Below are positions 8,067 through 40,099 of a stretch of 40,099 nt of DNA, in pieces. The stretch's first letter is position 1. Each line of letters begins with the position of its first letter. The notes under the pieces were generated by a model. That model searched no databases. It had not been told where the DNA came from and saw nothing but the letters and a program-made list of their open reading frames with translations. Source of the DNA: Candidatus Omnitrophota bacterium (GTDB lineage Bacteria > Omnitrophota > Gorgyraeia > Zapsychrales > Fredricksoniimonadaceae); the NCBI GenBank assembly GCA_903901225.1, contig CAIUQE010000036.1:1-40099 (forward strand), given 5' to 3'. A program made the position numbers and the translations under genes.

Positions 8067-9494
8067 TCACAGGGTTTTAGCGAGATCCAGAGCGTAATTC
8101 AAAAGATCCTTGGTGCGCTTGGGCGACTTTGACTCCGCGTAGGCGCGCAGGATCGGTTCGGTGCCCGAGGCGCGGACCATGATCCAGCTGTCATCCGCCA
8201 GTTCCAGCTTCACGCCATCGTAATCCTTCACGGCCACGACCTTCTGGCCCAGGACCTTTTCGATCTTCTTGACCGGATCCAGCGTCTTGACCAAAGATTT
8301 CATGCTGATGCTGGTCTTGTCGTAATAATAACGGCCGTATTTTTTCTCGACTTCAGCGAGGATCTTGCCGATATTCTTTTTTTCGTAAACCATCATTTCC
8401 AAAAGGAGCAGCCCGGCCAGGATGCCGTCGCGCTCGGGAATATAATCCGGCAAGCCCATCCCGCCCGCCTCCTCGCCGCCCACGATGATCTTCTCATTGA
8501 TCATCAGGTCGGAAATGTACTTGAACCCCACCGGCGTTTCGTAAAGCTTGATGCCATAATCCTTGCACATGTTGTCGATCATGGCCGTGCCGCAAATGGT
8601 CTTGACCACGCCACCCTTGACGCCGCGGTTCTTGAAAAGATGGATCGCCAGAAGCGCGAGGATCTTCTGGGGCGAAAGAAATTCTCCACCGGGAAGCACC
8701 GCCGCGACGCGATCCGCGTCTCCGTCAAGCACAAGGCCGAGGTCGATCTTTTCTTTCTTCATCTTGGCGATCAGCCCACCCAGATATTGCGGCAAAGGCT
8801 CGGGCCGGCAATTGCCGAAGCCGGGATTCACATCCGAACGCAACAGTTCAAGCCTGATGGCCGTGCCCTTGAGGACGTCCGCCAGCAATGTGCCGCCGGA
8901 ACCATGCATCACATCCTGCACCACGCGGAATTTCGCGGGCTTGATCTTTTTCAGGTTCACATAGCCCTTGATGAACTTGAGGTAATTCTTTTTCAGGTCA
9001 ACGACGCTGATCTTGCCGTCGGCAACAGCCTTTTTGAACTCAACCTTCACTACCGGCTGGGAGCCGATATACCCCTCGACCGCGTCGGTGATGTTTTTGC
9101 CCGCGCCGCCGCCTTCGGCCGTCTTGATCTTGAAACCGTTGTACTCGGGAGGATTGTGGCTCGCGGTGATGACAACACCCGCCACGCATTTCAGGTCGCG
9201 CACGGCAAGGCTCAACGCGGGCGTGGGTAAAGACGCGTCCGCGAGGACCACCTCGATATCATTGGCCGCCAGGACCGTCGCGACCGTCTCGGAAAAATCT
9301 TTCGACAGAAAACGGTTGTCGTAGCCCACCGCCACGCGCACAACCTCGCCGGGGATCTTTTGGGCGTCATCCCTGACCCACACGGCGAACGCCTGCGCCA
9401 GGATGGCGACATTCTCGAACGTGAACGTATCCGCGATGACCGCTCTCCAGCCATCCGTACCGAACTTGATAACATCCTTCGCGTGCGCGCTCAT
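8067..9494 (-). CDS. Phosphoglucomutase/phosphomannomutase family protein
   Basis: The family moves a phosphate between C1 and C6 of hexoses through a phosphoserine. The 475 residues have the four expected blocks: FGTDGWRAVI at the N-terminus, the active serine in TASHNPPEYNGFK (Ser112), the metal loop DGDADRV, the sugar loop GGEEAGGMG, and the phosphate-binding RASGTEPILRAY near the C-terminus. AAAGGAG stands ahead of the ATG. Glucose, mannose or glucosamine specificity is not decidable here. The window has a second member of this superfamily at 36958-39975, which is not a close copy. Confidence 0.9.
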   Translation of the reverse strand: MSAHAKDVIKFGTDGWRAVIADTFTFENVAILAQAFAVWVRDDAQKIPGEVVRVAVGYDNRFLSKDFSETVATVLAANDIEVVLADASLPTPALSLAVRDLKCVAGVVITASHNPPEYNGFKIKTAEGGGAGKNITDAVEGYIGSQPVVKVEFKKAVADGKISVVDLKKNYLKFIKGYVNLKKIKPAKFRVVQDVMHGSGGTLLADVLKGTAIRLELLRSDVNPGFGNCRPEPLPQYLGGLIAKMKKEKIDLGLVLDGDADRVAAVLPGGEFLSPQKILALLAIHLFKNRGVKGGVVKTICGTAMIDNMCKDYGIKLYETPVGFKYISDLMINEKIIVGGEEAGGMGLPDYIPERDGILAGLLLLEMMVYEKKNIGKILAEVEKKYGRYYYDKTSISMKSLVKTLDPVKKIEKVLGQKVVAVKDYDGVKLELADDSWIMVRASGTEPILRAYAESKSPKRTKDLLNYALDLAKTL

Positions 9495-15339: not shown

Positions 15340-16839
15340 TTATTTCACACCCGTCTTGTTCCCGACCACCGGCGTAATGATATGCGGCGTCAGGAATATC
15401 ATCAAGTCCTGCTTTTGGTGCACGTCCGCCGTATGCCGGAAAGGCCAGCCCAGGATAGGTATGTATCCCAGGATCGGGACCCTCTTCTCTTCCTTGGTCA
15501 CCGTATCCCTGATCAACCCCGCGATGACCAGCGTGTCACCATCCTTGATCATCACCTTGGTCGTAATGGATTCATTGGTCAGGACCGGCATGGTCGCGCT
15601 GCTGGCCGTGACACTCGTCGGAGGGGTTGCCGACGCGAAACCGATGATCTTGGGCGCGATATCCAGCGTCACCAGGTGCGCGCTGTTGATATGCGGCGTC
15701 ACGTCGAAAACAATCCCGATGTCCATGTACGTCCAGCCTGATATATGCAGGATGCCTGTTTGCGCGTCGGAGGTGTACTGCGGCATGGGATACTGCGATC
15801 CCACCTGGACCTTCGCCTGCTGGTTATCCATCGTCACGACCTGGGGGTTGGAGAGGATCTTCGTATTACCCCGGGTCTTGAGCATGTCGAGCGTGGCGGA
15901 CAATCCCGTCGCGTTGAGCGTGCCATATACCGGCGACGGGCTTGTCGAATCAACCTGTGATGTTTGTTCTGACGGCGTCTGGCTGGAGGTGGTTGAAACA
16001 TGGTACGGGAATATCTTGCTCCTTGAATCAACGCTCCAGGGCAGCGTCGTGGCGCGCGCGCCGCCGGAAACACCGACGGACAACCCCCAATCAATGCCCA
16101 GGGTATCCGACCTGTTCAGCGTCGTCTCGATGATCTTGGCTTCGATAAGGACCTGCGGGGTCACGGTATCAAGCTTTTTGACAACCTCGCGCATCCGCTC
16201 CAGATTGCTGGCCACATCCGTCACAATGACCGCGTTGGTCCGAACGTCAAAGGTGATGCCGCCCCGGGTCGATTTCATCTTGTCCATGGACTTCACGACA
16301 TCCTCAGCCTTGCTGAAATTCAACTCGAAAGCTTCCGTGGCCAGTGGCTCCTGGTCCGCGAGCGTCTTGGCGTCCTCCCGCCGTTTCTTCAGGTTATCGA
16401 CCGTCGTGACCAGGATCACAGTGCCCCTTTGTTCATAACTGTACCCATACGTCGAGAGGATCACCTCGAGCGCTTTCTGCCAGGGGACATCCTTCAGCTG
16501 GATATTGACCATCCCGACGACCTCGGGGCCCGCGATGATATTGACCTTGCTTTTGTAAGCCAGGACCTTGAGGACATTCTTGATATCCGCCTCGCGGAAA
16601 TCAAGGCTGACATTACCCGACGGATTGACATCAAATTCCATGACCGCGGGCTTGACCTCGGCCTCGGCGGCCTGCGCGGGCGGCTGGGTGGCCTCGGCGT
16701 TAACCACAGGCGCGACAGACGATGCCGCCGCAGGAGCCGCCTGGGCACTGGCAGACTGACCCTCCCCCGCACACGAAAGAGTGGAAAACCCGGCGACGGC
16801 CATGATCACACACGCCGCGCGTGCCAATTGCCTGAACAT
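15340..16839 (-). CDS. pilQ: Type IV pilus secretin PilQ
   Basis: The secretin forms the outer-membrane ring through which the pilus leaves the cell. The 499 residues have a signal peptide (about 1-24) and an Ala/Pro-rich linker. A secretin/TonB short N-terminal domain follows near 70-145 (VSLDFREADIKNVLKVLAY, MVNIQLKDVPWQKALEVIL). Next comes an N1-type domain near 165-230 (GGITFDVRTNAVIVTD), then the secretin core from about 235 (QVLIEAKIIETTLNRSDTLG, VGSQYPMPQYT, VMIKDGDTLVIAGLIRD, VPILGYIPILGWPFR, DLMIFLTPHII). AMIN domains found in many PilQ proteins are absent. It closes the pilMNOPQ run. Confidence 0.95.
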   Translation of the reverse strand: MFRQLARAACVIMAVAGFSTLSCAGEGQSASAQAAPAAASSVAPVVNAEATQPPAQAAEAEVKPAVMEFDVNPSGNVSLDFREADIKNVLKVLAYKSKVNIIAGPEVVGMVNIQLKDVPWQKALEVILSTYGYSYEQRGTVILVTTVDNLKKRREDAKTLADQEPLATEAFELNFSKAEDVVKSMDKMKSTRGGITFDVRTNAVIVTDVASNLERMREVVKKLDTVTPQVLIEAKIIETTLNRSDTLGIDWGLSVGVSGGARATTLPWSVDSRSKIFPYHVSTTSSQTPSEQTSQVDSTSPSPVYGTLNATGLSATLDMLKTRGNTKILSNPQVVTMDNQQAKVQVGSQYPMPQYTSDAQTGILHISGWTYMDIGIVFDVTPHINSAHLVTLDIAPKIIGFASATPPTSVTASSATMPVLTNESITTKVMIKDGDTLVIAGLIRDTVTKEEKRVPILGYIPILGWPFRHTADVHQKQDLMIFLTPHIITPVVGNKTGVK

Positions 16840-17184
16840 CTATTCCTCCTTTTTTAACTGAAGCACGGACGTGACGCCGTCCTTCTGAAGTACCACGCGG
16901 TCCGTTTCGATCCGCTCAACTTTGTAGGGCCCGACCATTTTTCCCTGCTCAACAATGGCGCCATTGATGATGGCGATGCACCCGCTCCCGTCCGATATAA
17001 TGCCTTCGAGCGCCATTTCCGAAACCGTAAAATCCGCCGTATACGCAACCATGGCCCCGCCGGCGGTCACCAGCGGCTGGAAAGGATCACGCGCCCCGTG
17101 CGGATCATACATGAAAGGCAGCCCATCCGCCATCGCCGTAGCGCACGCCATGATCCCCGCAAGAACGCCGAACAGTATCCTCAT
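16840..17184 (-). CDS. pilP: PilP-like pilot protein of the type IV pilus
   Basis: The 114-residue protein has a signal peptide (RILFGVLAGIMACATAMA) but no lipobox cysteine. It then has the PilP hallmark RDPFQPL and a small beta domain (EMALEGIISDGSGCIAIING, VGPYKVERIETDRVVLQKDG). PilP links the PilN-PilO inner-membrane complex to the periplasmic part of PilQ. The stop abuts the pilQ start and the ATG overlaps the pilO stop by 4 bp. The assignment rests on the RDPFxP motif, the size and the position. Confidence 0.8.
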   Translation of the reverse strand: MRILFGVLAGIMACATAMADGLPFMYDPHGARDPFQPLVTAGGAMVAYTADFTVSEMALEGIISDGSGCIAIINGAIVEQGKMVGPYKVERIETDRVVLQKDGVTSVLQLKKEE

Positions 17185-17765
17185 CGGGCCCCCAGGATCA
17201 ATATTTTTACCTGCATCTTGACCGCGTGCCGGGCGGGATCATGCTCATCCGCCGTGATATCCAGACTTTCGATCTGCCAGAAAACTTTTTCCTGCTCCAG
17301 GCGGTTCAGGAACCGCCCCAGGTCGTGATATCCCGAACGGGCCTTCACCAGGATGGAAAGGCCGGTATATTTCCCGTCCTCATTCGTGACGGCCACAACA
17401 CCATCACTTTTCTGCGGGACCAGCTGGTCGATCTTGACGCCATACTGATTGGCCAGCGTGGAGATCGTCTTAAGGACGGCGGGGATCGCGTCCACCTTGT
17501 GGACCATGGCCTTGAAATCCATGGCTTCACGGCGGGCACCTTCCAGGCGTTCGCGCATCTGGCCCATGCGCTGCTTGTTCACCAGCAGCATATCGATATC
17601 CGACCTCAGCTGGGCTGTTTTAGCACACAACGCCGTGATGACGCCGACCTGCGGCCGGGCGATCAGGAAAATATCGGCCGCCAGCACGGCAACGACCGCG
17701 ACAGCCAGCAAGGCAAAGAACTGTTTCGCATCGAGCTTTCTTAATTTTATCAGCAGCTGCCGCAT
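17181..17765 (-). CDS. pilO: PilO-like inner-membrane alignment protein
   Basis: The 194 residues have a short cytoplasmic N-terminus, one membrane span (FFALLAVAVVAVLAADIFLIA, about 15-36), a periplasmic coiled coil (LRSDIDMLLVNKQRMGQMRERLEGARREAM), and a ferredoxin-like C-terminal domain (YTGLSILVKARSGYHDLGRFLNRLEQEKVFWQIESLDIT), which is the PilO pattern. PilO pairs with PilN to align the motor with the secretin. It lies 10 bp after pilN. Confidence 0.82.
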   Translation of the reverse strand: MRQLLIKLRKLDAKQFFALLAVAVVAVLAADIFLIARPQVGVITALCAKTAQLRSDIDMLLVNKQRMGQMRERLEGARREAMDFKAMVHKVDAIPAVLKTISTLANQYGVKIDQLVPQKSDGVVAVTNEDGKYTGLSILVKARSGYHDLGRFLNRLEQEKVFWQIESLDITADEHDPARHAVKMQVKILILGAR

Positions 17766-17775
17766 ATCCCCACCA

Positions 17776-18360
17776 TCACTTGCGCTTGGCCTTCAACGAA
17801 AAATCCGCGATCGGAACAGCGATATTATCACGCCGCTGGATGGAGTCCACGTCAACACTGGTAAACGAATCCCTGACGCTATCCTTCATCTTGAGCGCGG
17901 CAACAAAATCACCGGCCTCCACCATCTCATTCTTCATCTTGGATACGGAACTTCCGTAGATCGTAAGGTCTTTTTTCTCGAACAAAAGCTCGCGTAGCCA
18001 GACACCTTTGGGGATGCTGTCAGAAAGGTCGTTGAGGAACTGCGCCCAGTGAAGGCTTTGGGCCGACGTGATCGGGCGCACGCCTCCCAACTTGGCCTGG
18101 ATGGCTTTGATCTCATTCGAGACGCCATCGTAAGCTTTCTGGTCAACGGACATGCCATGCCAGCGCGCTTCAAGGATCTTGTAGGAGGCCATGCGGTAAA
18201 CGGCGACCCCGGCCAGCACCATGTGGACCGCCACCAGGAAACCGGCCAGCGCCACAAGGCCGCCCACGATGATCTCGGCGGGGACCCCCCCGATATCCTC
18301 GGTGAAAAGCCCGCTCCCCTCCCGCCCCCGCTGTTCTGGAATAAAATTGAGTTTAATCAT
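17776..18360 (-). CDS. pilN: PilN-like inner-membrane alignment protein
   Basis: The 194-residue protein starts MIKLNFIPEQRG, close to the INLLPWR-type N-terminus by which PilN binds PilM. It has one membrane span near residues 30-52 (VGGLVALAGFLVAVHMVLAGV) and a C-terminal periplasmic domain (LNDLSDSIPKGVWLRELLFE, LTIYGSSVSKMKNEM, FTSVDVDSIQRR) typical of PilN. The start at 18360 overlaps the pilM stop by 8 bp. A longer reading frame from 18513 lies inside pilM and is not credible. It forms heterodimers with PilO. Confidence 0.85.
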   Translation of the reverse strand: MIKLNFIPEQRGREGSGLFTEDIGGVPAEIIVGGLVALAGFLVAVHMVLAGVAVYRMASYKILEARWHGMSVDQKAYDGVSNEIKAIQAKLGGVRPITSAQSLHWAQFLNDLSDSIPKGVWLRELLFEKKDLTIYGSSVSKMKNEMVEAGDFVAALKMKDSVRDSFTSVDVDSIQRRDNIAVPIADFSLKAKRK

Positions 18361-19432
18361 ATTCACCCAGAGCCAATCCCAATGCCGTGGCCATGCGCCG
18401 CCCCTCGGCCGCAAGCCCCTCTCGGTTGCCGACCTGCGCGCCGACATGAAGCCTCTCCACCGGATTCCAAGCGACCAGTGGCATGTCAAAATGCCCCGCG
18501 ACCCCTGCCTCAAGACCCGGGATCTGGGCCGCTTCGCCGGTCAGGCAGATGCGGGCAATGGCAAGGTTCTTTTCTGTGCTGAAATAATCGAAGGACAAGC
18601 GCACCTCGGCGATGATATTGGCCAGGACCGTTTCAATGCTCCTGGCAACCTCGGGCCCTCCCCCCGCAACAGGGCCGGCCGCCAGCAACGCGCGTGCCTG
18701 CGCCACAGGGACCCCCGCGATATTCGACAGGTTTTTCGCCATATCGGCGGCACCGATAAAGATATCGCGCGTGAACTTTGGCATCCCGTCGGCCATGATG
18801 ATGAGCGTGGTAAATGTTTCCCCTATGTCCACGATCGCGACGGCCTTCCCGGCAGTATCCGCCGGCGCGCACGTCGCCGGAGGAAACCTTTTGAAAACAT
18901 TACCGACCGCGACGGACGCGATCGTGATCGCCGCGGGCTCGATCCCGCATTCTTTCAGGAGCTTCAGGCGCGCCTCAACAATGTCCTTTTTCACGGCGGC
19001 CGCGAGGACCGTCATCCTTTTGTCCTTGCCTTTCGGGTCAAGGATGCAGCAATCGATATGGACCGTCTCCCTGGGGAACGGGAAATACTTGTCGGCCTCC
19101 ATGGCGAACGCCTTGCGAAGGTCGGAAGCGGACATGCGCGGCATATCAATATACCGGATAAGAGTTCCCTTGCCGCTGACCGAGGCCAGGACCGCGCATG
19201 AACGGGGTACAACCCCCAATTTTTCAAAGACCCTGACGAGGGCCGCCTTCTCGTCCGTGCCATTGACCGGTTCAACCGCCCAGCGCACAACCTCAAATCC
19301 ATCCTGCCGGCGCCGAAGCTCAATGGCACGGCAAGCCGAAGCCCCGATGTCAAGGCCAATGGCCTCGGTCTCTTTTGGGGATAAAAAGACCTTTTTAATG
19401 AGCTGGAGATATGTCTCAAATATTCTGTGCAT
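18353..19432 (-). CDS. pilM: Type IV pilus assembly ATPase-like protein PilM
   Basis: PilM is an actin/FtsA-like cytoplasmic protein that binds the PilN tail. The 359 residues show the fold: IGLDIGASACRAIEL (phosphate 1), SGKGTLIRYIDMPRMSASDL, the PilM-typical ADKYFPFPRETVHIDC, VAIVDIGETFTTLIIMADG (phosphate 2), and ARICLTGEAAQIPGLEAGV (adenosine). No clear SD is visible ahead of the ATG. An AT-rich stretch at 19433-19531 separates it from the pilin terminator and could hold a promoter, but no box pair is convincing. Confidence 0.92.
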   Translation of the reverse strand: MHRIFETYLQLIKKVFLSPKETEAIGLDIGASACRAIELRRRQDGFEVVRWAVEPVNGTDEKAALVRVFEKLGVVPRSCAVLASVSGKGTLIRYIDMPRMSASDLRKAFAMEADKYFPFPRETVHIDCCILDPKGKDKRMTVLAAAVKKDIVEARLKLLKECGIEPAAITIASVAVGNVFKRFPPATCAPADTAGKAVAIVDIGETFTTLIIMADGMPKFTRDIFIGAADMAKNLSNIAGVPVAQARALLAAGPVAGGGPEVARSIETVLANIIAEVRLSFDYFSTEKNLAIARICLTGEAAQIPGLEAGVAGHFDMPLVAWNPVERLHVGAQVGNREGLAAEGRRMATALGLALGEYD

Positions 19433-19531
19433 AAAGGAAAACTTTTAATTGCTCTTAATATAACAAATAATGGAATATATAAGATAATTTTTTGATTTAT
19501 TAATCCGTTCTCCGGATGACTCTCAACGCGG

Positions 19532-19564
19532 AAAAAAACAAGGGGGCCAAAAAGGCCCCCCTTG
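19532..19564 (-). terminator. Intrinsic terminator downstream of the pilin gene
   Basis: In the minus-strand transcript an AAGGGGGGCC / GGCCCCCTTG stem with a TTTTT loop (one bulged C) is followed by a run of seven T. It would end the pilin message and separate the highly expressed pilin from pilM. Confidence 0.88.
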
Positions 19565-19592
19565 CGTACATCACAGGTGATTCATCCAGGTA

Positions 19593-19985
19593 TTACTGGA
19601 GGACGCCGCCTGTGCTTATGGTCAATGTCTGCGTTCCCGACACGTTCGGGGTCACAGGTGTGGCCGTGATGGTATACCCGCCCGCGGCAAACGCGCAATT
19701 GTACGTAAAACCGGACAAAACGGGAGACCCGGTACACGGATCATTGTTCATGAACGGCGGTGTTGCGCCGGTGAGAGATGCCATATTGCCGGGATAATTA
19801 CCCGACTGGGTCGTGGCATACGTTTCAGAGGCGGTGGAGATCGTGCGTAACGTTCCCCTGGCCAACGCGTCATTGGCGGAGATCTTCGCCCTCAACAGGT
19901 TGGGAATGGCAATAGCCGCCAGCAACGCGATGATAGCGACAACGATCATGATCTCAACGAGAGTAAAACCTTTCTTCCTACCCAT
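19593..19985 (-). CDS. pilA: Type IV pilin (major pilin candidate)
   Basis: The 130-residue prepilin has a short basic leader MGRKKG, cleaved before Phe of FTLVEIMIVVAIIALLAA. Glu5 of the mature protein is present. The hydrophobic helix ends AIPNLLRAKISANDA. The globular part is small and rich in Thr, Ser, Gly and Pro, with two cysteines (NDPCTG and YNCAFAAGG) that could close a D-region loop. GGAGGAG precedes the ATG. It has its own promoter, a long leader and a terminator, which fits the main structural subunit. Being one of several pseudopilins is the alternative. Confidence 0.9.
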   Translation of the reverse strand: MGRKKGFTLVEIMIVVAIIALLAAIAIPNLLRAKISANDALARGTLRTISTASETYATTQSGNYPGNMASLTGATPPFMNNDPCTGSPVLSGFTYNCAFAAGGYTITATPVTPNVSGTQTLTISTGGVLQ

Positions 19986-20223
19986 AACTCCTCCTTTAGT
20001 TTGAGGATGATCCGCCCTGGAGAAAGTTAAAGTTTGAGATATAATAACGATTTTCTCGAGCTTTTCTCCATTTTGTGACCATCCATAGCCCTGTGCAAAC
20101 TTTATTCCCTCCTTTCCTTAAAGGGTTAACGAAGCTAAAAGTAACGTAAACCTTTGGAAAATATAAAATTATGGTTTAACGTACCTGCTTCTTTCCCTAT
20201 CAAAGAACCCGTGCACCATCTAA
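19986..20223 (-). promoter_or_regulatory. Long structured 5' leader of the pilin gene
   Basis: About 230 nt separate the promoter from the pilin ATG. The leader contains an 8-bp inverted repeat (20018-20025 with 20063-20070) close to the start codon and a GGAGG at 20108-20112. A TTG-initiated 23-codon reading frame (20098 down to 20027) follows that GGAGG at suitable spacing. Whether the small frame is translated, or the leader binds a ligand, cannot be told. No complete cyclic-di-GMP riboswitch pattern was found. Confidence 0.45.
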
Positions 20224-20253
20224 ACTATAGCACCCGGCAGACCCAATTGTCAA
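20224..20253 (-). promoter_or_regulatory. Promoter of the pilin gene
   Basis: A perfect TTGACA (20248-20253) and TATAGT (20224-20229) are separated by 18 bp on the minus strand. The -35 box overlaps the stop codon of the upstream coiled-coil gene. This gives pilA expression independent of the upstream motor genes. Confidence 0.8.
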
Positions 20254-21296
20254 TCCTTGGGATAAACCCCGGCCTCAAGGGCCGATTTCTTCTTATCGAG
20301 GTCTACCATTTGCCTGCGCAAAGCGTCAAGTTGCTGACGCAAGTCTTTGTTGCGTTTAAGGAATTCTTCATGTTTCGCCTCATATTCCTTGCGCAGCGTC
20401 TCCTGACGCACCTGCTGACGGGCCTGACCCTCTCCACGGGACTTCTCGATCGTGGCTATTTCAGCCACCAGCTTCTGATCGCGCTCCCCCATATCCTTCA
20501 CATCACTCTCCAGGCGCTGTGCGCGCGTTTCGCTATAATCTTCCTGCAGGATCTTATCAAGCTCGGCCTGGGCCTGCGGCAAACGGGCATTATCCCTGGC
20601 CAGATCCGCTTCGACCTGCGTCAAAGCCTTCTGCAGCTTTTCCTGGTCGCTCTTGAGACCAACCACCTGCTGAGGGCCGGTCGTTACCAAAGCGTTAAGA
20701 TCCTGCCATTCCCTGGTCGCCGCCTGCAGATCCCGCACCGCTTCCTGCAACCGGGCTTGGAGCGATTCCTTGTCCTTGCGCGCCACCAGGATGTCCTGCC
20801 GCACGGGCATGGCCTCTGACGCGCCCCCTCTGATCGCCGCAATATCTTCATTTAGGGAATTGATCTTCTCTTGAGCCAGACGTTCCTCATCCTGCAGCGA
20901 CGTCAACGACGCGTCCTGAGCCGCCTTGTTTTTCCTGGCTTCCTGCAGATCGTACTCGGTCTTCGCCAGCTGTTCTTTCATCGCATCAGCGCCACCCGTG
21001 CGGCGCTCAGCCCTGGCCATCAGCCCGGACCTTCTCGCTTCCAGGCGCGCCGTATCCGCCTGCAGGGAGCGCAAGCGGTCATTCAACAACTTGATCCTGG
21101 CGCGCATCGCCTGGTTCCTGGCGTTGATCTCCTGATTCTCCCGCGCCACGCGCGCCACACTCTGGCGGAGCGTTTCAAGCGTGACATCAAACGTCGATCC
21201 CCGCGGCGTGTTCTGCGCGAAGGCCGGTGGCAGGAACAACAACCCGCTCCCTGCCAGGATCATTGCCGTCAAGAAATAAACCGCTTTTGTTTTCAT
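20250..21296 (-). CDS. Exported coiled-coil protein in the pilus locus
   Basis: The 348 residues start with a signal peptide (VYFLTAMILAGSGLLFLPPAFA, cleaved before QNTPRG). Almost everything after it is predicted coiled coil, with heptad-like runs such as ENQEINARNQAMRARI, LNDRLRSLQADTARLEARRS and FLKRNKDLRQQLDALRRQM. There is no membrane span, lipobox or enzyme motif. It lies between pilC and pilA, 8 bp after pilC, so a periplasmic spacer or scaffold role in pilus assembly is possible. I do not recognise a family. Coiled-coil content alone would also match unrelated proteins. Confidence 0.75.
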   Translation of the reverse strand: MKTKAVYFLTAMILAGSGLLFLPPAFAQNTPRGSTFDVTLETLRQSVARVARENQEINARNQAMRARIKLLNDRLRSLQADTARLEARRSGLMARAERRTGGADAMKEQLAKTEYDLQEARKNKAAQDASLTSLQDEERLAQEKINSLNEDIAAIRGGASEAMPVRQDILVARKDKESLQARLQEAVRDLQAATREWQDLNALVTTGPQQVVGLKSDQEKLQKALTQVEADLARDNARLPQAQAELDKILQEDYSETRAQRLESDVKDMGERDQKLVAEIATIEKSRGEGQARQQVRQETLRKEYEAKHEEFLKRNKDLRQQLDALRRQMVDLDKKKSALEAGVYPKD

Positions 21297-21304
21297 TCCC
21301 TCTC

Positions 21305-22519
21305 CTATTTCAGGGCCTGTGTCATGTTAAGGATCGGAAGAAAAAGCGCCGTCACGATAAAACCGATGACGATCCCGAGGAACCCGATGATAAGGGGCTC
21401 GATCATGCTCGTCAGGCCTTCAACGGCGGCATCCACCTGTTCATCAAAAAATTCCGCGACCTTCAAGAGCATTTTATCCAGGCGCCCCGACTGCTCGCCG
21501 ATCGCGATCATCTTTGTGACCATCGTCGGAAAAACAGGGCTGCGGGCCAGCGGCACGGCGATGCTCTCCCCCTCGCGCACGCCCTGCATGACATTCTGGA
21601 CAACCTCCTCAAGGACGCGGTTGCCGATGGTCTTGCGGACAATATCCAACCCGTCGAGGATCGGGACACCGCTCTGGACAAGCACGGAAAGCGTGCGGCA
21701 GAAACGGCTGACCGCCACCTTGCAGATCAGGCCGCCGAACAAAGGCATCTTCAGGATCGCGCCGTCGATCTGGTAAGCCCCTTTGGGTGTCTTGCGGTAA
21801 GAAATGAACGCGAACACAAGCCCGACGATCCCGATGACAATAAAAATGAACTGCTTTTGCATGATGTCGCTGAAATCCAGAAGCGACTGTGTTATCGGTG
21901 GAAGGTCTTTCCCCAGGCTGCTGTAAATGTTCTTGAAAGTCGGCACGACCTTGATGATCAGGAACGTCGTCACCGCGCCCGCCATGCCGACGATAACGGT
22001 CGGATAGACCATGGCTGACGACACCTTGCGCCGGAGTTTCTCCGATTTCTCCATGTAACCGGACAGGCGGTCAAGGACCGTGGAAAGGACGCCCCCGCTC
22101 TCCCCGACCCTGATCATGTTGACGAACAAATTGTCAAAAACCTTCGGATATTTCGCGAAGGCGGCGGAAAGGCCCGCGCCCAGGCGGATATCATCGCGGA
22201 TCTGGACCAGTATTTTTTTCAAAGAAACATTCGAGGCCTGGTCCTCCAGCGCTTCCAGCGTCTGCAGGATCGGGATACCCGCGTCGATCATGGTCGCCAT
22301 CTGCCGGGCAAAAAGGATGATGTCCTCGGAGGTGATCTTCCGGGAGGAACCGCTCCGGGCCGCTTTCATGAAAGACGACTTTTTTTCCTCCTCGATGGAA
22401 ATGATGGTCAAGTGCCTTTTGCGCAACTCCTCGATGACCATCGTGACATCGTTGGCTTCAACCTTGCCATTGACGGCGCGCGCCTCCTGGTCTCTGGCGG
22501 CATAACGGAACATGGGCAT
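21305..22519 (-). CDS. pilC: Type IV pilus inner-membrane platform protein PilC
   Basis: PilC is the polytopic platform on which the motor ATPases act. The 404 residues have two GspF-type cytoplasmic domains, each followed by membrane spans. Visible blocks are FARQMATMIDAGIPILQTLEAL, LFVNMIRVGESGGVLSTVLDRL, AMVYPTVIVGMAG, then the repeat FCRTLSVLVQSGVPILDGLDI, MVTKMIAIGEQSGRLDKMLLKV and a final span IGFLGIVIGFIVTALFLPIL. The length is typical. AGGAG precedes the start. A C/G-rich small hairpin at 22538-22556 lies in the gap to the upstream gene. Confidence 0.95.
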   Translation of the reverse strand: MPMFRYAARDQEARAVNGKVEANDVTMVIEELRKRHLTIISIEEEKKSSFMKAARSGSSRKITSEDIILFARQMATMIDAGIPILQTLEALEDQASNVSLKKILVQIRDDIRLGAGLSAAFAKYPKVFDNLFVNMIRVGESGGVLSTVLDRLSGYMEKSEKLRRKVSSAMVYPTVIVGMAGAVTTFLIIKVVPTFKNIYSSLGKDLPPITQSLLDFSDIMQKQFIFIVIGIVGLVFAFISYRKTPKGAYQIDGAILKMPLFGGLICKVAVSRFCRTLSVLVQSGVPILDGLDIVRKTIGNRVLEEVVQNVMQGVREGESIAVPLARSPVFPTMVTKMIAIGEQSGRLDKMLLKVAEFFDEQVDAAVEGLTSMIEPLIIGFLGIVIGFIVTALFLPILNMTQALK

Positions 22520-22567
22520 TACGGTCTCTCCTTGTATACCCCCCGTCCCGGGGGTGGAACACGCCCT

Positions 22568-23023
22568 CTAGACAACCGCGGGATAAGCGCGCGCGAGGGC
22601 CTGGTCGATCTGCGAAGCCGTGGAAATGAACATCGCGATGTGACACCCCGTCAGCCCCTCGAGCTCACGGCGCACCTTGGCATCAAGGGGATTGAGCGCG
22701 ACAATGCTGAGGATGTTGCCGATCCGGTCCAGCGGCACAAGACGGTTGCCGCAGGCCACATCCGCCGGGATAAGGCGCGCGATCTGCGGGTCGATAAGAT
22801 GCTTGCTCACCGCGATATACGGCAAATTACATTGCAGCACCACGGCGGTCACGATATCGATCTCGGTGACATACCCCAGGCCGATCAACACCCCGCCCAA
22901 ATAAACACAACCGCCCTGGTCCTTCTGGGCCGCGAGCGCTTTCTCCAATTGGGCTTGCGTGATGAATCCTCTTTCGATAAGGATCTCACCGATCAAACGA
23001 TGGCCATCACAGGGATTTTTCAT
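22568..23023 (-). CDS. Stand-alone MshEN / PilB N-terminal domain protein
   Basis: The 151 residues match only the N-terminal part of PilB/GspE ATPases: a tandem MshEN pattern (RLIGEILIERGFITQAQLEKA, then LGGVLIGLGYVTEIDIVTAV followed by NLPYIAVSK) and the following small domain (LIPADVACGNRLVPLDRIGN, ILSIVALNPLDAK). No Walker motif is present. MshEN domains of MshE and PilB bind cyclic-di-GMP, so this protein could sense it, compete with the ATPases, or bind PilM/PilC. It lies 48 bp upstream of pilC. A paralogue is encoded at 26693-27142. Function is inference, homology is clear. Confidence 0.85.
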   Translation of the reverse strand: MKNPCDGHRLIGEILIERGFITQAQLEKALAAQKDQGGCVYLGGVLIGLGYVTEIDIVTAVVLQCNLPYIAVSKHLIDPQIARLIPADVACGNRLVPLDRIGNILSIVALNPLDAKVRRELEGLTGCHIAMFISTASQIDQALARAYPAVV

Positions 23024-23054
23024 AATATGCTCCTCACCACGCCGAGATATCTTC

Positions 23055-23159
23055 GGGTTTACAGCATATCTTGCTACTCAAACAGCAGAAACAGCTTTTT
23101 CTAAAAGATACTATGGAAAGCTTGGTTTCTGAACTCGTATCAAGATATGCTGTAAACCC
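23055..23159. repeat. 105-bp near-palindromic element with 19-bp perfect inverted ends
   Basis: Positions 23055-23073 and 23141-23159 are perfect 19-bp inverted copies. Inside them, 23086-23098 pairs with 23117-23131 (13 bp with a 2-base bulge). The whole unit could fold as one long hairpin or cruciform. It occupies most of the 230-bp gap between a PilB gene and the next MshEN gene (23024-23253). No target duplication, promoter or T-run was clear. The remaining 23160-23253 is AT-rich and otherwise featureless. Confidence 0.8.
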
Positions 23160-23253
23160 TTGTTCATAGTTCAAGAATACCACTGCAAATTGGACTCTAT
23201 ATCTTTTTTATTATATAGAAACCATGCTGCAGAAGAAAACAAAAAAATATTAT

Positions 23254-24957
23254 TCATTCTTCAGATGTCGCCACGCGCAGCACTTCGGCGATCGTGGTCT
23301 GCCCCTGGGCCAGGCGTTCGATCGCGTCATCCCAGAGCGTCCGCATCCCCTGTTTCTCGCGCGCGTACTTCTTGATGTCATCCGACATCTTTCCTTCCAG
23401 GAGCATGTTGCGGATGGGGTCATCAACGATCAATAATTCCGTCAACCCGAAACGCCCGAAATATCCCGTCTGGCGGCAGCGCTCGCAACCGCGGCCCTCA
23501 TAAAATTTTGTCTTCAGGTCAATATGCCCCTGCAGGCGCTCGATGGCTTCCGGCGGGATCTCGACCTCCTCCTTGCAATGCGGGCAGATCTTGCGCGCCA
23601 GGCGCTGGGCGCAGACCATCAAAAGGCTCGACGCCACCAGGAACGGCTCAACGTTCATGTCGACCAGGCGCGTCAGCGCGCCGGCGGCATCATTGGTGTG
23701 AAGCGTGGAAAGGACCAGCTGGCCGGTCAATGACGCCTTGATGGCGATATCGGCGGTCTCGTTATCGCGGATCTCACCGACCATCACGATATCGGGACTC
23801 TGGCGAAGGATGGAGCGCAGGCCCGCGGCAAAGGTAAGCCCGATATCCGCCTTGACCTCGATCTGCGTCAAGCCTTCGAGAAGGTATTCGACAGGATCCT
23901 CGACCGTGATGATGTTCTTTTCAGGCGTGTTCAGGCGGCTGATCATCGAATAAAGCGTGGTGGATTTGCCGCTGCCCGTCGGGCCCGTCACAAGGATCAT
24001 GCCATAAGGCTTGAGCATGTACTCATTGACCACGGACACGGACTGGGGGGAAAACCCGAGATGTTCCAACCCGACGGAAAGGCCGCTCTTGTCCAGGATG
24101 CGCATGACGATCTTGGGGCCATGGCAGGTGGGAAGGATCGAGACCCGGAAATCCACCTCCTTGCCCGTGACGCGCATCTTGAACCGCCCGTCCTGGGGGA
24201 CCTGGTTCACCGTGATATCCATCCGCGCCATGATCTTGATGCGCACCACGACGGCGCTGCGGCTTTCACGAGGGACATCAAGGATCTCCTGCAGGACACC
24301 GTCAATACGGTAACGGACCCGCATGTCGCCCTCCGTCGGTTCCATGTGGATGTCCGACGCCCGCTGGCGCAAAGCCTCCTTGATGACCAGGTTGACCATG
24401 CGGATGATCGGCGCCTGGCCGCTGCTGTCCACATCGGCGTTAGGCTCATCCTCGGCATCACCGACGATCTCCAGGCCTCCGACGTCAAAATCCTTGCTGA
24501 TCTCGGCCACCGTGGTTCGGGCCGAGACATTGTATAACTTGTCGATCGCTTCGCGGACCTGGGAATGCGCCCCCATCACAATGTCGATGCGCTTGCCGGT
24601 CAGGCTCCTGAGATCGTCAACGGCGAACACGTTGAAAGGGTCCGACAGCGCGACCGTCACGCCACTGCCCAACGCGGCAATGGGCACAAGTTGATACTGC
24701 CGCGCCACGCGTTCCGGGATCAAGTCCCGCAGTTTCTCATCGACCTTGAAATGCCGCAGGTCAAGGGACGGGATATGCAGCTCCCTGACAAGCAACAGCA
24801 AGAGCTCCTTCTCCGGGATAAGCCCCTTGCGCACCAGCGCTTCACCGAGAGGCACTCCCTCCTTGCGGTGGACATCCATGGCGGCATCCACATCGGCCCT
24901 GGTCACGCCGGGCCGCTGCAACAACGCCTCCACTATCTTTGCACGGATCGCCTGCAT
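23254..24957 (-). CDS. pilB: PilB-type pilus extension ATPase (copy 1)
   Basis: The 567 residues have an MshEN-like N-terminus whose first half is degenerate (VPLGEALVRKGLIPEKELLLL, IPSLDLRHF). The GspE core follows: APIIRMVNLVIKEALRQRASDIHME, Walker A GPTGSGKSTTLYSM near residue 330, the Asp box TVEDPVEYLLEGLTQ, Walker B DIVMVGEIRDNETADIA and the His box QLVLSTLHTNDAAGAL. Two cysteine pairs form the zinc site (CPHC, CERC). These traits mark an assembly ATPase rather than the retraction ATPase PilT. The start overlaps the stop of the other PilB gene by 1 nt. Confidence 0.93.
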   Translation of the reverse strand: MQAIRAKIVEALLQRPGVTRADVDAAMDVHRKEGVPLGEALVRKGLIPEKELLLLLVRELHIPSLDLRHFKVDEKLRDLIPERVARQYQLVPIAALGSGVTVALSDPFNVFAVDDLRSLTGKRIDIVMGAHSQVREAIDKLYNVSARTTVAEISKDFDVGGLEIVGDAEDEPNADVDSSGQAPIIRMVNLVIKEALRQRASDIHMEPTEGDMRVRYRIDGVLQEILDVPRESRSAVVVRIKIMARMDITVNQVPQDGRFKMRVTGKEVDFRVSILPTCHGPKIVMRILDKSGLSVGLEHLGFSPQSVSVVNEYMLKPYGMILVTGPTGSGKSTTLYSMISRLNTPEKNIITVEDPVEYLLEGLTQIEVKADIGLTFAAGLRSILRQSPDIVMVGEIRDNETADIAIKASLTGQLVLSTLHTNDAAGALTRLVDMNVEPFLVASSLLMVCAQRLARKICPHCKEEVEIPPEAIERLQGHIDLKTKFYEGRGCERCRQTGYFGRFGLTELLIVDDPIRNMLLEGKMSDDIKKYAREKQGMRTLWDDAIERLAQGQTTIAEVLRVATSEE

Positions 24958-36828: not shown

Positions 36829-36921
36829 GCGTAGGGGAGGACCTTGTGTCCTCCCTTCGAAAAGTACGTTTTTATAATATACGGCACATTTATCGGGCCG
36901 ACACAAGGTCGGCCCCTACGC
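36829..36921. repeat. Pair of REP-like palindromes in inverted orientation
   Basis: Two 27-nt units lie head to head, at 36829-36855 and, reversed, at 36895-36921. Both read GCGTAGGGG, three variable bases, ACCTTGTGT, three variable bases, CCC. The variable triplets are AGG/CCT in one unit and CCG/CGG in the other, so each unit keeps its own hairpin. A 39-bp spacer separates them. The form resembles REP doublets (BIMEs) spread by REP-associated tyrosine transposases. Confidence 0.8.
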
Positions 36922-36957
36922 TCGATGGATTTCTCTGACCATCAACAATTTATTTTT

Positions 36958-39900
36958 TTAAACCAAAGAGACCTGTTCCACTTCAAGCTTCAGCGGGTCC
37001 ATCTGACTCACCTGCAGGTTCTCATTGCCGCTGTTGGGGTCAAGGCCCAGCAGGGGCCGGACATTGACCGGCACAGGCACACCCACCGGCACGGGGATGA
37101 TCCCGCGCAGGTCCTTCTGCAGCTGTTTCAGCTGGACCGGGTCGAATTGCGGAATGCCCGCCGCGCCCGTCGCGATGACCTTGAGGTAATTGCCCTGGCC
37201 GAGGTCGATACCGCCAAGATCCTGCGACTTATCAACAGTGCTATCTTTTTGCGCATAAAAACTTTCAAGCTGCGCTCTGACCGGAGCAAGATGTTTCTCA
37301 AGTTGGACATCCTCAAGTATCTGTTGCTGTGCCGAAAGCGCGATGCGTTCAGCCTCGGCATAATTCCAGGCTTTTTGCTTCGGGCTAACATCTTTGGAAA
37401 ATATCTGTGTGTAAAACCTCAATGCCTGTGACGTGCCGGAGGCGCGGATCGTAATATAATTTAAACTGTTGGTAAAAGGATCCCCTGGCTTGAGCCGCGC
37501 GTCTTCAAAAAAGAAACGAACACCTTCATCGGGAACGCCAACGTAATGGGTCTTGTCGATACGGCCGGAAGCGAATTCGACCGAACCAAGGACTTTCTTT
37601 CCCGCGATCATGAACGGATGATCCGTAAGTGCATCCTCATTGGCCTTCCTCCCCCATTCCTGAGATTTTTCAATGATCTTGATCTTCTCCGCGAGGCCAG
37701 CCGCTTTCTCGAACGACCCAACCCTTGGCAAAGGCTTGTTGGCCGTGGCATAATGACCAATCAGCGCATAAACATCATCCAAAAGCTCGAACAATGTTTT
37801 ATGCTGAGATATTGCATACGCCGCGACCTCGGCCAAAAGAATCGCCGCAAGAGTCCCATCCTTTTCTTTTGTATGCCCCTGAAGGCTCACACCATTCGAC
37901 TCCTCAGCCAGTATTTCAACATACTTACCCATCTGCTCGACATCTTCCAGCATATCCGCAAGGTAAGTGAACCCGACCCAGGTTCTGCGGCCGGCAAGGT
38001 AATCACCTTTTTCAAGAACACCGGTTACATCAAGCATTTTTCCGACTGCGTCCACACCATACATATTGGCAACAGCCCCGATGGCATCCGTTGTCACATG
38101 ACTGAATTCAACCACATGATCCGATGGATTCTCCAAAAGCCCCATCTGTTTTTTCATGCTCAAACGGTACCAGATCAACAAAGCCCATGCATCATTAGCT
38201 GAAAACAAGCGGTACTTTCCAAAATATTTCTGCTGAGCTTCCGGAACTTTGACAAGCAAGCCCATTCGATCACAGTCGGGGTCAGTCCCAACCAAAACAT
38301 CCAACTCATCAAACACCGATTGGCCATATTCTGCGATAAATTCTCTGACAGCAATGTCCGCTGAAATAGGATCCCCTGGATCAGGTTGTTCACCGAAAGC
38401 CCATGCGGGAAAATTTCCATCTAATTCCTGAAGTTTTGAAATAACCTTAAAATTAGTAAACCCGGTTTCTTTTAACAAACGTGGTACTGCTTTAAACCCT
38501 GCTCCATTGAAGGCTGCGTAACCGATCTTCAGATTATTGGCATAGGCACCTACAGCTTGTTCATTCAAAATGAATTTTTTCACTTGTTCGGCATACAACG
38601 AATGCATATCAATGCGCTCAAACCCGAAATAATCTTTACCCTCCAGCGCTTCACTGCCCCCAAGCCACACAAGCTGACCAGGTTTTGCGTCAGTCAGCGA
38701 CGTAGCCATAACAATGTCAGCATTCCTGACCTGATCAATGGCCGCCGTAACCTTATTTTTGCTCACCTGATTCAGCTGGGCTCCATTGCCTAGCGTAATC
38801 TTGTAGCCGTTATAATCCGCGGGATTATGACTTGCAGAAATGAGAAGACCGATATCGCCTTTCACAGCTTCCGTCGTTATACCATAAGAGAGCTCGGGGA
38901 ATGGACTTACTTCATCAAAAAGGAATATCTTAAACTCATGCTCCGGCGTGGACTGGGCGATAAAAAGACGGGCAATCATGTCCGCGAACGCCGCCCCGCC
39001 AATTCGGCTATCATACCCTATGACAACCCGTTTTAAACCCTGCTCCCGGGCCATCTTGATAACGCCCTGCGTGGTTTTCAAAAGTTTGAACATATTGATC
39101 GTATTGGGCCCTTTCAGGAAACTTCCTAATGGACCCTTTGCCTTGAATATCTGTAATTCTTTTTCAGTAAGAACAGCTTTGCCTCGAATACCGGCTGTTC
39201 CAAACTGAACATCCTGGCGATACGCTTCAATGATGTCATCCCACCGGCCTTCACGAATCGCGGCAAGGTTCGTCGCGCGGATACCGGGATCAATGCGATA
39301 AATATCAGGATCCTGCGTCCATTCAACAAGGTTCTTATACGTATTCGCGAGCGCATTCTTATAAACAGTATCCGGAATATCGCCGCGCTGGTATGCTTCC
39401 GTCAACATACCCTCAATGATCATTTTAGCTCCATCCAGGAGCTGCTGATCTTCGAATCTCAGCGCCTGAGCGCGATCCCTGCCAGTGTCCGTTTTCATCA
39501 TGTAGCTGCTCTTTGTCGTTGAGCCTGTTAAGCTGACAACTCGAGGATCAGTCTCTTCCTTAGGGGGCTGACTAAAATCGACCATGCCACCCGAGAAATA
39601 CTTATGCGGCGCGGTCTCATTCGTATTGCGGTCAAACTCTTCCTTGACATAGTTGTAAACACCCTTCTGGTACGCCTCCATATACTGCGCGTACACTTTT
39701 TCCCGCGCATCCTTCTCGGGGATCTCGATGCCGCTCACCTTGTTCGTGTTGGCATAGACCCGGGTGAGCAGACTCTCCTTGAGGGCGTTCTTGTACCACC
39801 CGGCGAGGATCATGGAATGGAACACCTGGCGCAAGGGGGCGAAATTCCTGCCTTCATTCACTTCTTTTTCAAGAACAGGGATAATGACTTCACGAAGAAT

Positions 39901-39975
39901 ATTTTTTGCGACATCTTCCCCCCTCCCCGTCCCTCCCCACAAGGGGGAGGGCGACAATGTGTGCAACTGATACAT
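36958..39975 (-). CDS. Phosphohexomutase at the end of a truncated large multidomain protein
   Basis: The 1005-codon frame has an alpha-phosphohexomutase core at about 257-860: FGTAGIRG, active serine in SASHNPADYNGYK (Ser381), metal loop GTDPDCDR (565-569), sugar loop EESNGVSLQGH and phosphate loop TIRASGTSQALRFY. Residues 26-135 (VIIPVLEKEVNEGRNFAPLR, FHSMILAGWYKNALKESLL, YQKGVYNYVKEEF, YFSGGM) resemble a module I recall from giant Omnitrophota proteins. The C-terminal 140 residues are Pro/Val/Leu-rich. The first residues (MYQLHT, then LSPSPLWGGTGRGED) come from the IS end and a REP palindrome, so the frame's start is not original. The true upstream part is probably lost or displaced. Enzyme function looks intact, expression is uncertain. 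Confidence 0.8.
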   Translation of the reverse strand: MYQLHTLSPSPLWGGTGRGEDVAKNILREVIIPVLEKEVNEGRNFAPLRQVFHSMILAGWYKNALKESLLTRVYANTNKVSGIEIPEKDAREKVYAQYMEAYQKGVYNYVKEEFDRNTNETAPHKYFSGGMVDFSQPPKEETDPRVVSLTGSTTKSSYMMKTDTGRDRAQALRFEDQQLLDGAKMIIEGMLTEAYQRGDIPDTVYKNALANTYKNLVEWTQDPDIYRIDPGIRATNLAAIREGRWDDIIEAYRQDVQFGTAGIRGKAVLTEKELQIFKAKGPLGSFLKGPNTINMFKLLKTTQGVIKMAREQGLKRVVIGYDSRIGGAAFADMIARLFIAQSTPEHEFKIFLFDEVSPFPELSYGITTEAVKGDIGLLISASHNPADYNGYKITLGNGAQLNQVSKNKVTAAIDQVRNADIVMATSLTDAKPGQLVWLGGSEALEGKDYFGFERIDMHSLYAEQVKKFILNEQAVGAYANNLKIGYAAFNGAGFKAVPRLLKETGFTNFKVISKLQELDGNFPAWAFGEQPDPGDPISADIAVREFIAEYGQSVFDELDVLVGTDPDCDRMGLLVKVPEAQQKYFGKYRLFSANDAWALLIWYRLSMKKQMGLLENPSDHVVEFSHVTTDAIGAVANMYGVDAVGKMLDVTGVLEKGDYLAGRRTWVGFTYLADMLEDVEQMGKYVEILAEESNGVSLQGHTKEKDGTLAAILLAEVAAYAISQHKTLFELLDDVYALIGHYATANKPLPRVGSFEKAAGLAEKIKIIEKSQEWGRKANEDALTDHPFMIAGKKVLGSVEFASGRIDKTHYVGVPDEGVRFFFEDARLKPGDPFTNSLNYITIRASGTSQALRFYTQIFSKDVSPKQKAWNYAEAERIALSAQQQILEDVQLEKHLAPVRAQLESFYAQKDSTVDKSQDLGGIDLGQGNYLKVIATGAAGIPQFDPVQLKQLQKDLRGIIPVPVGVPVPVNVRPLLGLDPNSGNENLQVSQMDPLKLEVEQVSLV
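39931..39951. repeat. REP-like palindrome inside the coding frame
   Basis: CCCTCCCC (39931-39938) and GGGGAGGG (39944-39951) form an 8-bp stem around a 5-base loop that contains the reverse of CTTGT. A further C-rich run follows at 39918-39928. Read as protein on the minus strand it gives LSPSPLWGGTGRG. This G/C palindrome type is common as a dispersed repeat in bacterial genomes. Confidence 0.7.
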
Positions 39976-40099
39976 CCTTTACGTTTTAGACTGGGTACAT
40001 CCTTTACACTTTTTTAGTTGCGAATAATCTTGTTCTTTCTCAGATCTACGGAACCAAGGATATAAAAACTGAACTTCATTTGCCAAAGACCGTCGGCAA
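39960..40099 (-). mobile_element. End of an insertion sequence (IS481/IS21-like), cut by the window edge
   Basis: The end carries a C-terminal transposase fragment followed by two direct copies of a 12-bp terminal repeat, minus-strand GTAAAGGATGTA, at 39971-39982 and 39996-40007, 25 bp apart. Multiple short end repeats of this kind are known from IS21-like and some IS481-like elements. The outer edge is probably a TGT near 39958-39962. The exact boundary and the target duplication cannot be settled because the other end is outside the window. Confidence 0.6.
40014..40099 (-). CDS. C-terminal end of an integrase-core transposase (partial)
   Basis: Only 27 codons plus TAA are visible. The fragment reads ADGLWQMKFSFYILGSVDL then RKNKIIRN. 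The pattern of DGxW, a short beta strand, Y-x-LG and xDL is that of the last beta hairpin of IS481-type DDE transposases. The terminal repeats just downstream support this. Everything upstream lies outside the window, so the family assignment is moderate. Confidence 0.55.
   Translation of the reverse strand, partial: ADGLWQMKFSFYILGSVDLRKNKIIRN

Follow-up and report, generated by a model that had tools for sequence, protein, structure and literature searches.

Polymorphic effector and toxin systems combine a constant trafficking front with exchangeable C-terminal activities and occur as many paralogues. CT295 of Chlamydia trachomatis is both a phosphoglucomutase and a substrate of type III secretion (PMC9251005), and for the phylum Omnitrophota, passages of Seymour et al. 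(2023, PMC10066038) describe giant open reading frames (ORFs) encoding long proteins with few annotated domains. Here we analysed a 40,099-nt stretch of a Candidatus Omnitrophota bacterium (contig CAIUQE010000036.1 of GCA_903901225.1; hereafter the window), which is the whole of contig C36 in an assembly of 2.38 Mb and 49 contigs. On its minus strand, an ORF of 1005 amino acids (aa) with an ATG start (36958-39975) contains a phosphohexomutase (PGM). This ORF appears to be the rear five sixths of a gene split by an insertion sequence (IS). The gene belongs to a large family with a common architecture, hereafter the chassis: a Sec signal peptide, domain A, a repeat-rich linker, domain B, an exchangeable cargo and a conserved tail with a GGIDL motif. 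With a modest lean in favour, we read the chassis proteins as exported enzymes that would act outside the cytoplasm, because of their signal peptides, shared ends, intact catalytic motifs, pairing of pathway steps and occurrence as extra copies beside housekeeping enzymes.

Chassis family in the genome and the phylum

From its N-terminus, the window ORF consists of IS-derived residues, a repeat-like stretch, domain B, a linker to the PGM domain that is fast-evolving, the PGM domain itself and a tail of ~60 residues (Table 1). The first-pass annotation of this DNA had recognized a complete phosphohexomutase between a module of very large Omnitrophota proteins and a Pro/Val-rich tail, and all three parts were borne out. 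The module (FAPLRQVFHSMILAGWYKN), located in the N-terminal part of the ORF, is the second half alone (domain B) of an N-terminal region of ~350 aa. A 19-mer of it was found at 18 places in the genome and the 113-aa module at 40 full-length places plus one fragment, with E-values of the paralogues down to 1e-53, and a search of the genome with domain A gave a matching set. The family frames in this genome are mostly 700-2000 aa and up to 3961 aa long, and the 41 frames total 47,854 aa, or ~6% of the assembly.

Both ends of these proteins were conserved. Nearly all front-complete copies begin with a signal-peptide-like start, typically ending in AYA with Q as the next residue (31 of 37 copies by a crude rule and most others by eye). 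The Pro/Val-rich end of the window ORF turned out to be the conserved C-terminal element of the family (GGIDL...DPAM...PVI), which lies within the last 110 residues of 37 of the 41 proteins, compared with 49 of 1964 control windows of that size. A tail profile hit 38 places, nearly all of them on the same chassis proteins, and matched the window tail at an E-value of 1e-17. Membership of the window gene is divided over two contigs, with the signal peptide and domain A on a separate front half (contig C27, see below) and domain B and the GGIDL tail in the window ORF.

The N-terminal chassis region was detected in 56 of 193 sampled genomes of the phylum, with several to many copies in the order of the window genome and in genome G240, and one to a few distant copies in most other families. 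Five distant copies that we read had kept the signal-like start and domains A and B, and most of them had a GGIDL- or GIDF-like motif near the C-terminus. The distant copies in other families were mostly large fused proteins as well, so that they gave no hint of a nearly single-copy ancestor with telling neighbours. No Pfam or NCBIfam model matched domain A, domain B or the tail, and no description of the chassis was found in the literature searched, which took in few subscription papers and no preprints.

The chassis thus looks like a polymorphic exported protein family. Five chassis genes stand in a row on one strand at C49 (17738-35042; loci L050 and L051), which suggests that the family grew by tandem duplication and cargo exchange. 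Chassis genes were also found on three IMG/VR contigs filed as viral (L243, L244 and L245), which are probably misfiled host sequence or provirus flank and served solely as extra sequences. That an assembly or binning artefact produced the family or the split is extremely improbable: the genome is a metagenome-assembled genome (MAG) whose 49 contigs break at repeats and IS ends, but the same architecture recurs across the phylum in frames that stay open over long stretches, and two records named independently (L145 and L146) have it too.

Probable split of the window gene by an insertion sequence

The terminal 140 bases of the window (39960-40099) recur at the ends of contigs C42 and C39, and the first 114 of them at the end of C44, with the flanking sequence of these copies diverging exactly at 39960, in agreement with the earlier suggestion that the gene had been cut by an IS. 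Read in the gene direction, the window IS end contains the end of a transposase-like frame (ADGLWQMKFSFYILGSVDLRKNKIIRN and a stop). The element is putatively IS481-like, judging by its ends. Since the IS end starts at 39960, the IS supplies the start codon of the ORF at 39975 and its first codons (MYQLH), which are followed by ~15 residues resembling a translated repeat.

The part that had been expected beyond the IS was found on another contig. A congener (G003) encodes an intact orthologue, 1207 aa long and 84% identical, in which the whole series of parts is present, from the signal peptide through domains A and B and the PGM to the tail. When this genome was searched with the first 223 residues of that orthologue, the best match was 88% identical (70% for the next paralogue) and lay on C27 (213-845, minus strand), where it carries a signal peptide and domain A. 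C27 continues into an IS end that holds the start of a transposase-like frame (MPWKVINKMDLKSELIQNW), in the same orientation as the frame end in the window. The genes upstream of the C27 half and of the orthologue in G003 are homologous, at 77% in the B region and 70% in the tail, with a diverged cargo, and C9 and C27 share an exact overlap of 124 bases. The predicted contig order C9-C27-IS-C36 is well supported.

Given the close match of the C27 front, its homologous upstream gene and the intact orthologue, the window gene would be an IS-split gene of ~1200 aa, of which ~210 aa are missing from the ORF, and not the end of a giant. The first-pass annotation had proposed that the ORF might be the last segment of a giant polyprotein, detached from its body. 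A remnant of that kind was rejected for this species in view of the intact orthologue and the front half on C27. The proposal has a counterpart in another genome, G050, in which a homologous PGM is located close to the end of a frame of at least 5839 aa. That frame begins with the same signal peptide, A and B region, and a further 555 aa on another contig apparently carry it on to the tail, giving a total of at least 6,390 aa. As an account of the window ORF, however, it is very improbable, with domain A directly preceding domain B in the congener and the front half in this genome matching that protein. The earlier annotation was therefore supported in part; it had not included the signal peptide, the sharing of both protein ends or the metabolic cargo of other kinds.

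Compared with G003, the ratio of non-synonymous to synonymous substitution rates (dN/dS) in the window was 0.12 for domain B, 0.30 for the linker, 0.07 for PGM and 0.15 for the tail, and that of the C27 half was 0.075, values that are rough given a dS of 0.6-1.4. These ratios mostly reflect the time before the IS insertion and are no sign that the cut fragment is still functional. With its signal peptide and domain A cut off by the IS, the window copy has probably lost its export and may be in decay.

Phosphoglucomutase-like cargo of the window gene

The cargo of the window gene is predicted to be a phosphoglucomutase-like enzyme. Pfam domains I-III of PGM scored above the cut-off and domain IV weakly, and the NCBIfam scan placed the protein below every equivalog cut-off. 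All four catalytic motifs are intact (SASHNP, GTDPDCDR, EESNG and RASGTS), so that the catalytic Ser and the metal, sugar and phosphate loops of the alpha-D-phosphohexomutase superfamily are all present. The four-domain PGM fold that characterizes this superfamily was also recovered, as the predicted model, of moderate confidence (mean pLDDT 58), matched solved PGM structures, best 1wqa with a TM-score of 0.73 on the target.

The nearest named relatives are on 'Ca. Omnitrophota' MAG contigs, including JANQMA010000026.1, and G073 is in the same order as the window genome. Free-standing phosphohexomutases of the PgcA/PGM2-like type have the fold and motifs in common with the window PGM, but they are only ~27-31% identical to it and lack the chassis. 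The nearest free-standing relative found was a 696-aa protein, ~39% identical, on L147, a MAG contig labelled as a Nitrososphaerota archaeon, possibly by a binning error.

Cargo enzymes in this genome and its relatives

From a scan of 36 paralogues in this genome, most cargo had no Pfam match. Those above the cut-off were, besides the PGM of the window gene, UDPGP, a Cys/Met PLP enzyme, HATPase, a 2'-5' RNA ligase, TPR repeats, a methyltransferase with HD and deaminase domains in one protein and another methyltransferase elsewhere, while matches to RelA/SpoT and HAD stayed below the Pfam cut-off.

Chassis cargo in relatives included phosphoglucose isomerase (PGI), phosphofructokinase (PFK) and PGI-PGM pairs. 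PGMs of the window type were found in frames of 1207, 2889, at least 1874 and at least 5839 aa, and in all six PGMs of this type the catalytic motifs are kept as far as the sequence extends. In G043, a protein with signal peptide, A and B carries UDPGP, PFK and PGI, and the PGM follows past one in-frame TGA. This TGA (L106 3436-3438, on contig C83 of G043) may be a sequencing error, a real nonsense codon or a site of readthrough.

A search of 92 genomes for PGI returned seven near-full-length canonical PGIs, five of them in frames of 1901-2844 aa. Four of these five frames have the N-terminal chassis region; the remaining one, from G079, lies on a contig truncated on either side. Both PGI cargo proteins tested exceeded the NCBIfam equivalog cut-off. 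PGI and PGM are present in the same protein in G016, G062 and G079 (L246, L247 and L249), with differing domain orders. BLAST at an E-value of 1e-3 did not relate the PGMs of these three proteins to the window PGM; those of G016 and G079 share 43% identity, and that of G062 is unlike both. It therefore looks as if the PGI-PGM pair of activities had been recruited repeatedly, with apparently unrelated PGMs.

These observations bear on a display or adhesion reading, in which the proteins would remain at the cell surface or in the periplasm after export and their metabolic enzyme folds would be used for binding or structure. Moonlighting at the surface is known for PGI and other enzymes of glycolysis, which counts for such a role, and signal peptides and shared ends would also fit it. 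Passages of PMC10066038 likewise suggest an adhesion role for giant Omnitrophota ORFs. However, binding alone would require neither the conservation of catalytic motifs in all window-type PGMs nor the repeated pairing of consecutive pathway enzymes, and we consider display unlikely.

The chassis enzymes occur beside ordinary ones. A second phosphohexomutase of ordinary length is encoded in the window at 8073-9494 and is probably the housekeeping enzyme, and ordinary PGIs were found in this genome and most relatives. An ordinary PGI of ~430 aa is also present in G016, G043, G062 and G067, that is, in four of the five genomes with PGI on a chassis; in G079, which is 79% complete, the chassis PGI alone was seen. 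The second window PGM and the ordinary PGIs ruled out that chassis PGM and PGI replace the housekeeping enzymes.

A further reading is a cytoplasmic or membrane-anchored metabolic scaffold, in which the signal-like start would be an uncleaved anchor or unused and the cargo would work in the cell's own metabolism. Its appeal is that the cargo substrates are intracellular and that PGI, PFK, PGM and UDPGP catalyse neighbouring steps. Yet nearly all copies start with a typical signal peptide that has an AxA site and points the chain outward, and housekeeping PGI and PFK are separate from the chassis in most genomes, which makes a scaffold improbable.

Proposed export of chassis enzymes

In the exported-enzyme reading that we favour, the signal peptide would take the cargo across the inner membrane by the Sec pathway, and domains A and B together with the tail would then hand it on or retain it outside the cytoplasm. 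There, PGM would interconvert glucose-1-phosphate and glucose-6-phosphate on sugar phosphates from prey, a host or lysing neighbours, in relatives often beside PGI in the same protein. As a more tentative extension, which we regard as possible but doubtful, Omnitrophota would possess a two-ended export chassis in up to tens of copies per genome that moves parts of central sugar metabolism (PFK, PGI, PGM and UDPGP) outside onto the sugar phosphates of prey, host or neighbours, with activities recruited independently more than once.

Several points weigh against this account of a split gene from a family of exported enzymes. The signal peptides were scored by a crude rule and by eye. The fold of the combined A and B domains had no match in the PDB, as judged from a low-confidence model built from five sequences. 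C27 and C36 are joined by inference, without sequence through the IS, and their terminal repeats are similar, not identical, so that more than one IS copy may lie between the halves. The substrates of PGM, UDPGP and PFK are intracellular metabolites, which makes an outside target an assumption. ATP/ADP translocase (PF03219), a marker of host dependence, was detected in 1 of 92 relatives, outside this order; its absence in this order gives no support for intracellular life, and prey, lysing neighbours or the extracellular matrix are possible settings.

The window also contains type IV pilus or type II secretion system (T2SS)-like genes at 15346-24957 (secretin, PilO, PilN, PilM, T2SSF and T2SSE), and with a secretin and T2SS/Pil genes on the same contig, exit through the outer membrane is conceivable.

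Regardless of its function, no Pfam or NCBIfam model and no structural match was found for a family that makes up such a share of this genome. Its shared secretion-type start and end hint that ordinary enzymes of metabolism are sent out of the cell in these bacteria. If the chassis exports metabolic enzymes, this would explain the purpose of many large uncharacterised Omnitrophota proteins, and the proposed host- or prey-dependent life would become testable through single enzymes of known assay, for which the repeated PGI-PGM pairing provides a concrete biochemical hypothesis.

Repeats in the A-B linker and features of the window

Two genes are split at the A-B linker by different IS elements: the window gene and a paralogue on C37 (L061 9400-11000), where the IS has a transposase frame of ~347 aa and is of the IS110 type by eye. 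An exact copy of a palindromic extragenic repeat lies just downstream of the window gene, within the region 36830-36925, and about ten paralogues contain the same repeat in their A-B linkers, translated in-frame as GEDLVSS, with other repeat types filling further linkers. The A-B linker hence seems to be a place where repeats and IS elements land. Palindromic repeats are described as IS targets (PMC1525189), which offers a plain explanation for the cut at this position.

Table 1. Positions of the split chassis gene and associated elements in the window
Feature	Position	Strand	Evidence
ORF of 1005 aa, putative rear five sixths of the split chassis-PGM gene	36958..39975	minus	
Domain B (module of the first-pass annotation)	39571..39909	minus	40 full-length places in the genome
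Repeat-derived A-B linker, translated TLSPSPLWGGTGRGEDV	39910..39959	minus	similar C/G-rich repeat beside the IS copy on C42; linker survey
PGM cargo domain	37261..39360	minus	Pfam, alignment, motifs, fold match, dN/dS 0.07
Conserved family tail GGIDLGQG...PLLGLDP	37042..37215	minus	tail profile match, E 1e-17
IS terminal 140 bases, with end of transposase-like frame and ORF start codon (39973-39975)	39960..40099	minus	
Palindromic extragenic repeat	36830..36855	plus	same DNA translated in-frame in A-B linkers of ~ten paralogues

Comparison with known systems

Like the giant ORFs, some chassis proteins reach 5,000-6,000 aa, but most are 700-2500 aa long, and the window gene, with an intact orthologue of 1207 aa, falls short of the >20 kb that defines giant ORFs. 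The passages of PMC10066038 on these ORFs make no mention of a shared front and tail or of metabolic cargo. Cargo proteins of type IX secretion resemble the chassis in that unrelated proteins start with a Sec signal peptide and end in a conserved element of a sorting-like kind, whereas the chassis tail differs from the type IX C-terminal domain in its length of ~60 aa, its GGIDL motif and the lack of a match to any Pfam or NCBIfam model. In contrast to polymorphic toxin systems, the clear chassis cargo is mostly metabolic and not toxic, and a constant tail follows it. CT295, the nearest precedent, is like the window protein in being a PGM that has a secretion signal and belongs broadly to the same superfamily. 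It comes from a related superphylum (PVC) and acts on glucose-1-phosphate and glucose-6-phosphate outside the bacterial cytoplasm. It differs in that a short type III signal is attached to an ordinary enzyme, whereas the window gene has a Sec-type signal as its front and the chassis, for which export is predicted, places its cargo between a front of ~350 aa and a conserved tail that tens of proteins have in common.
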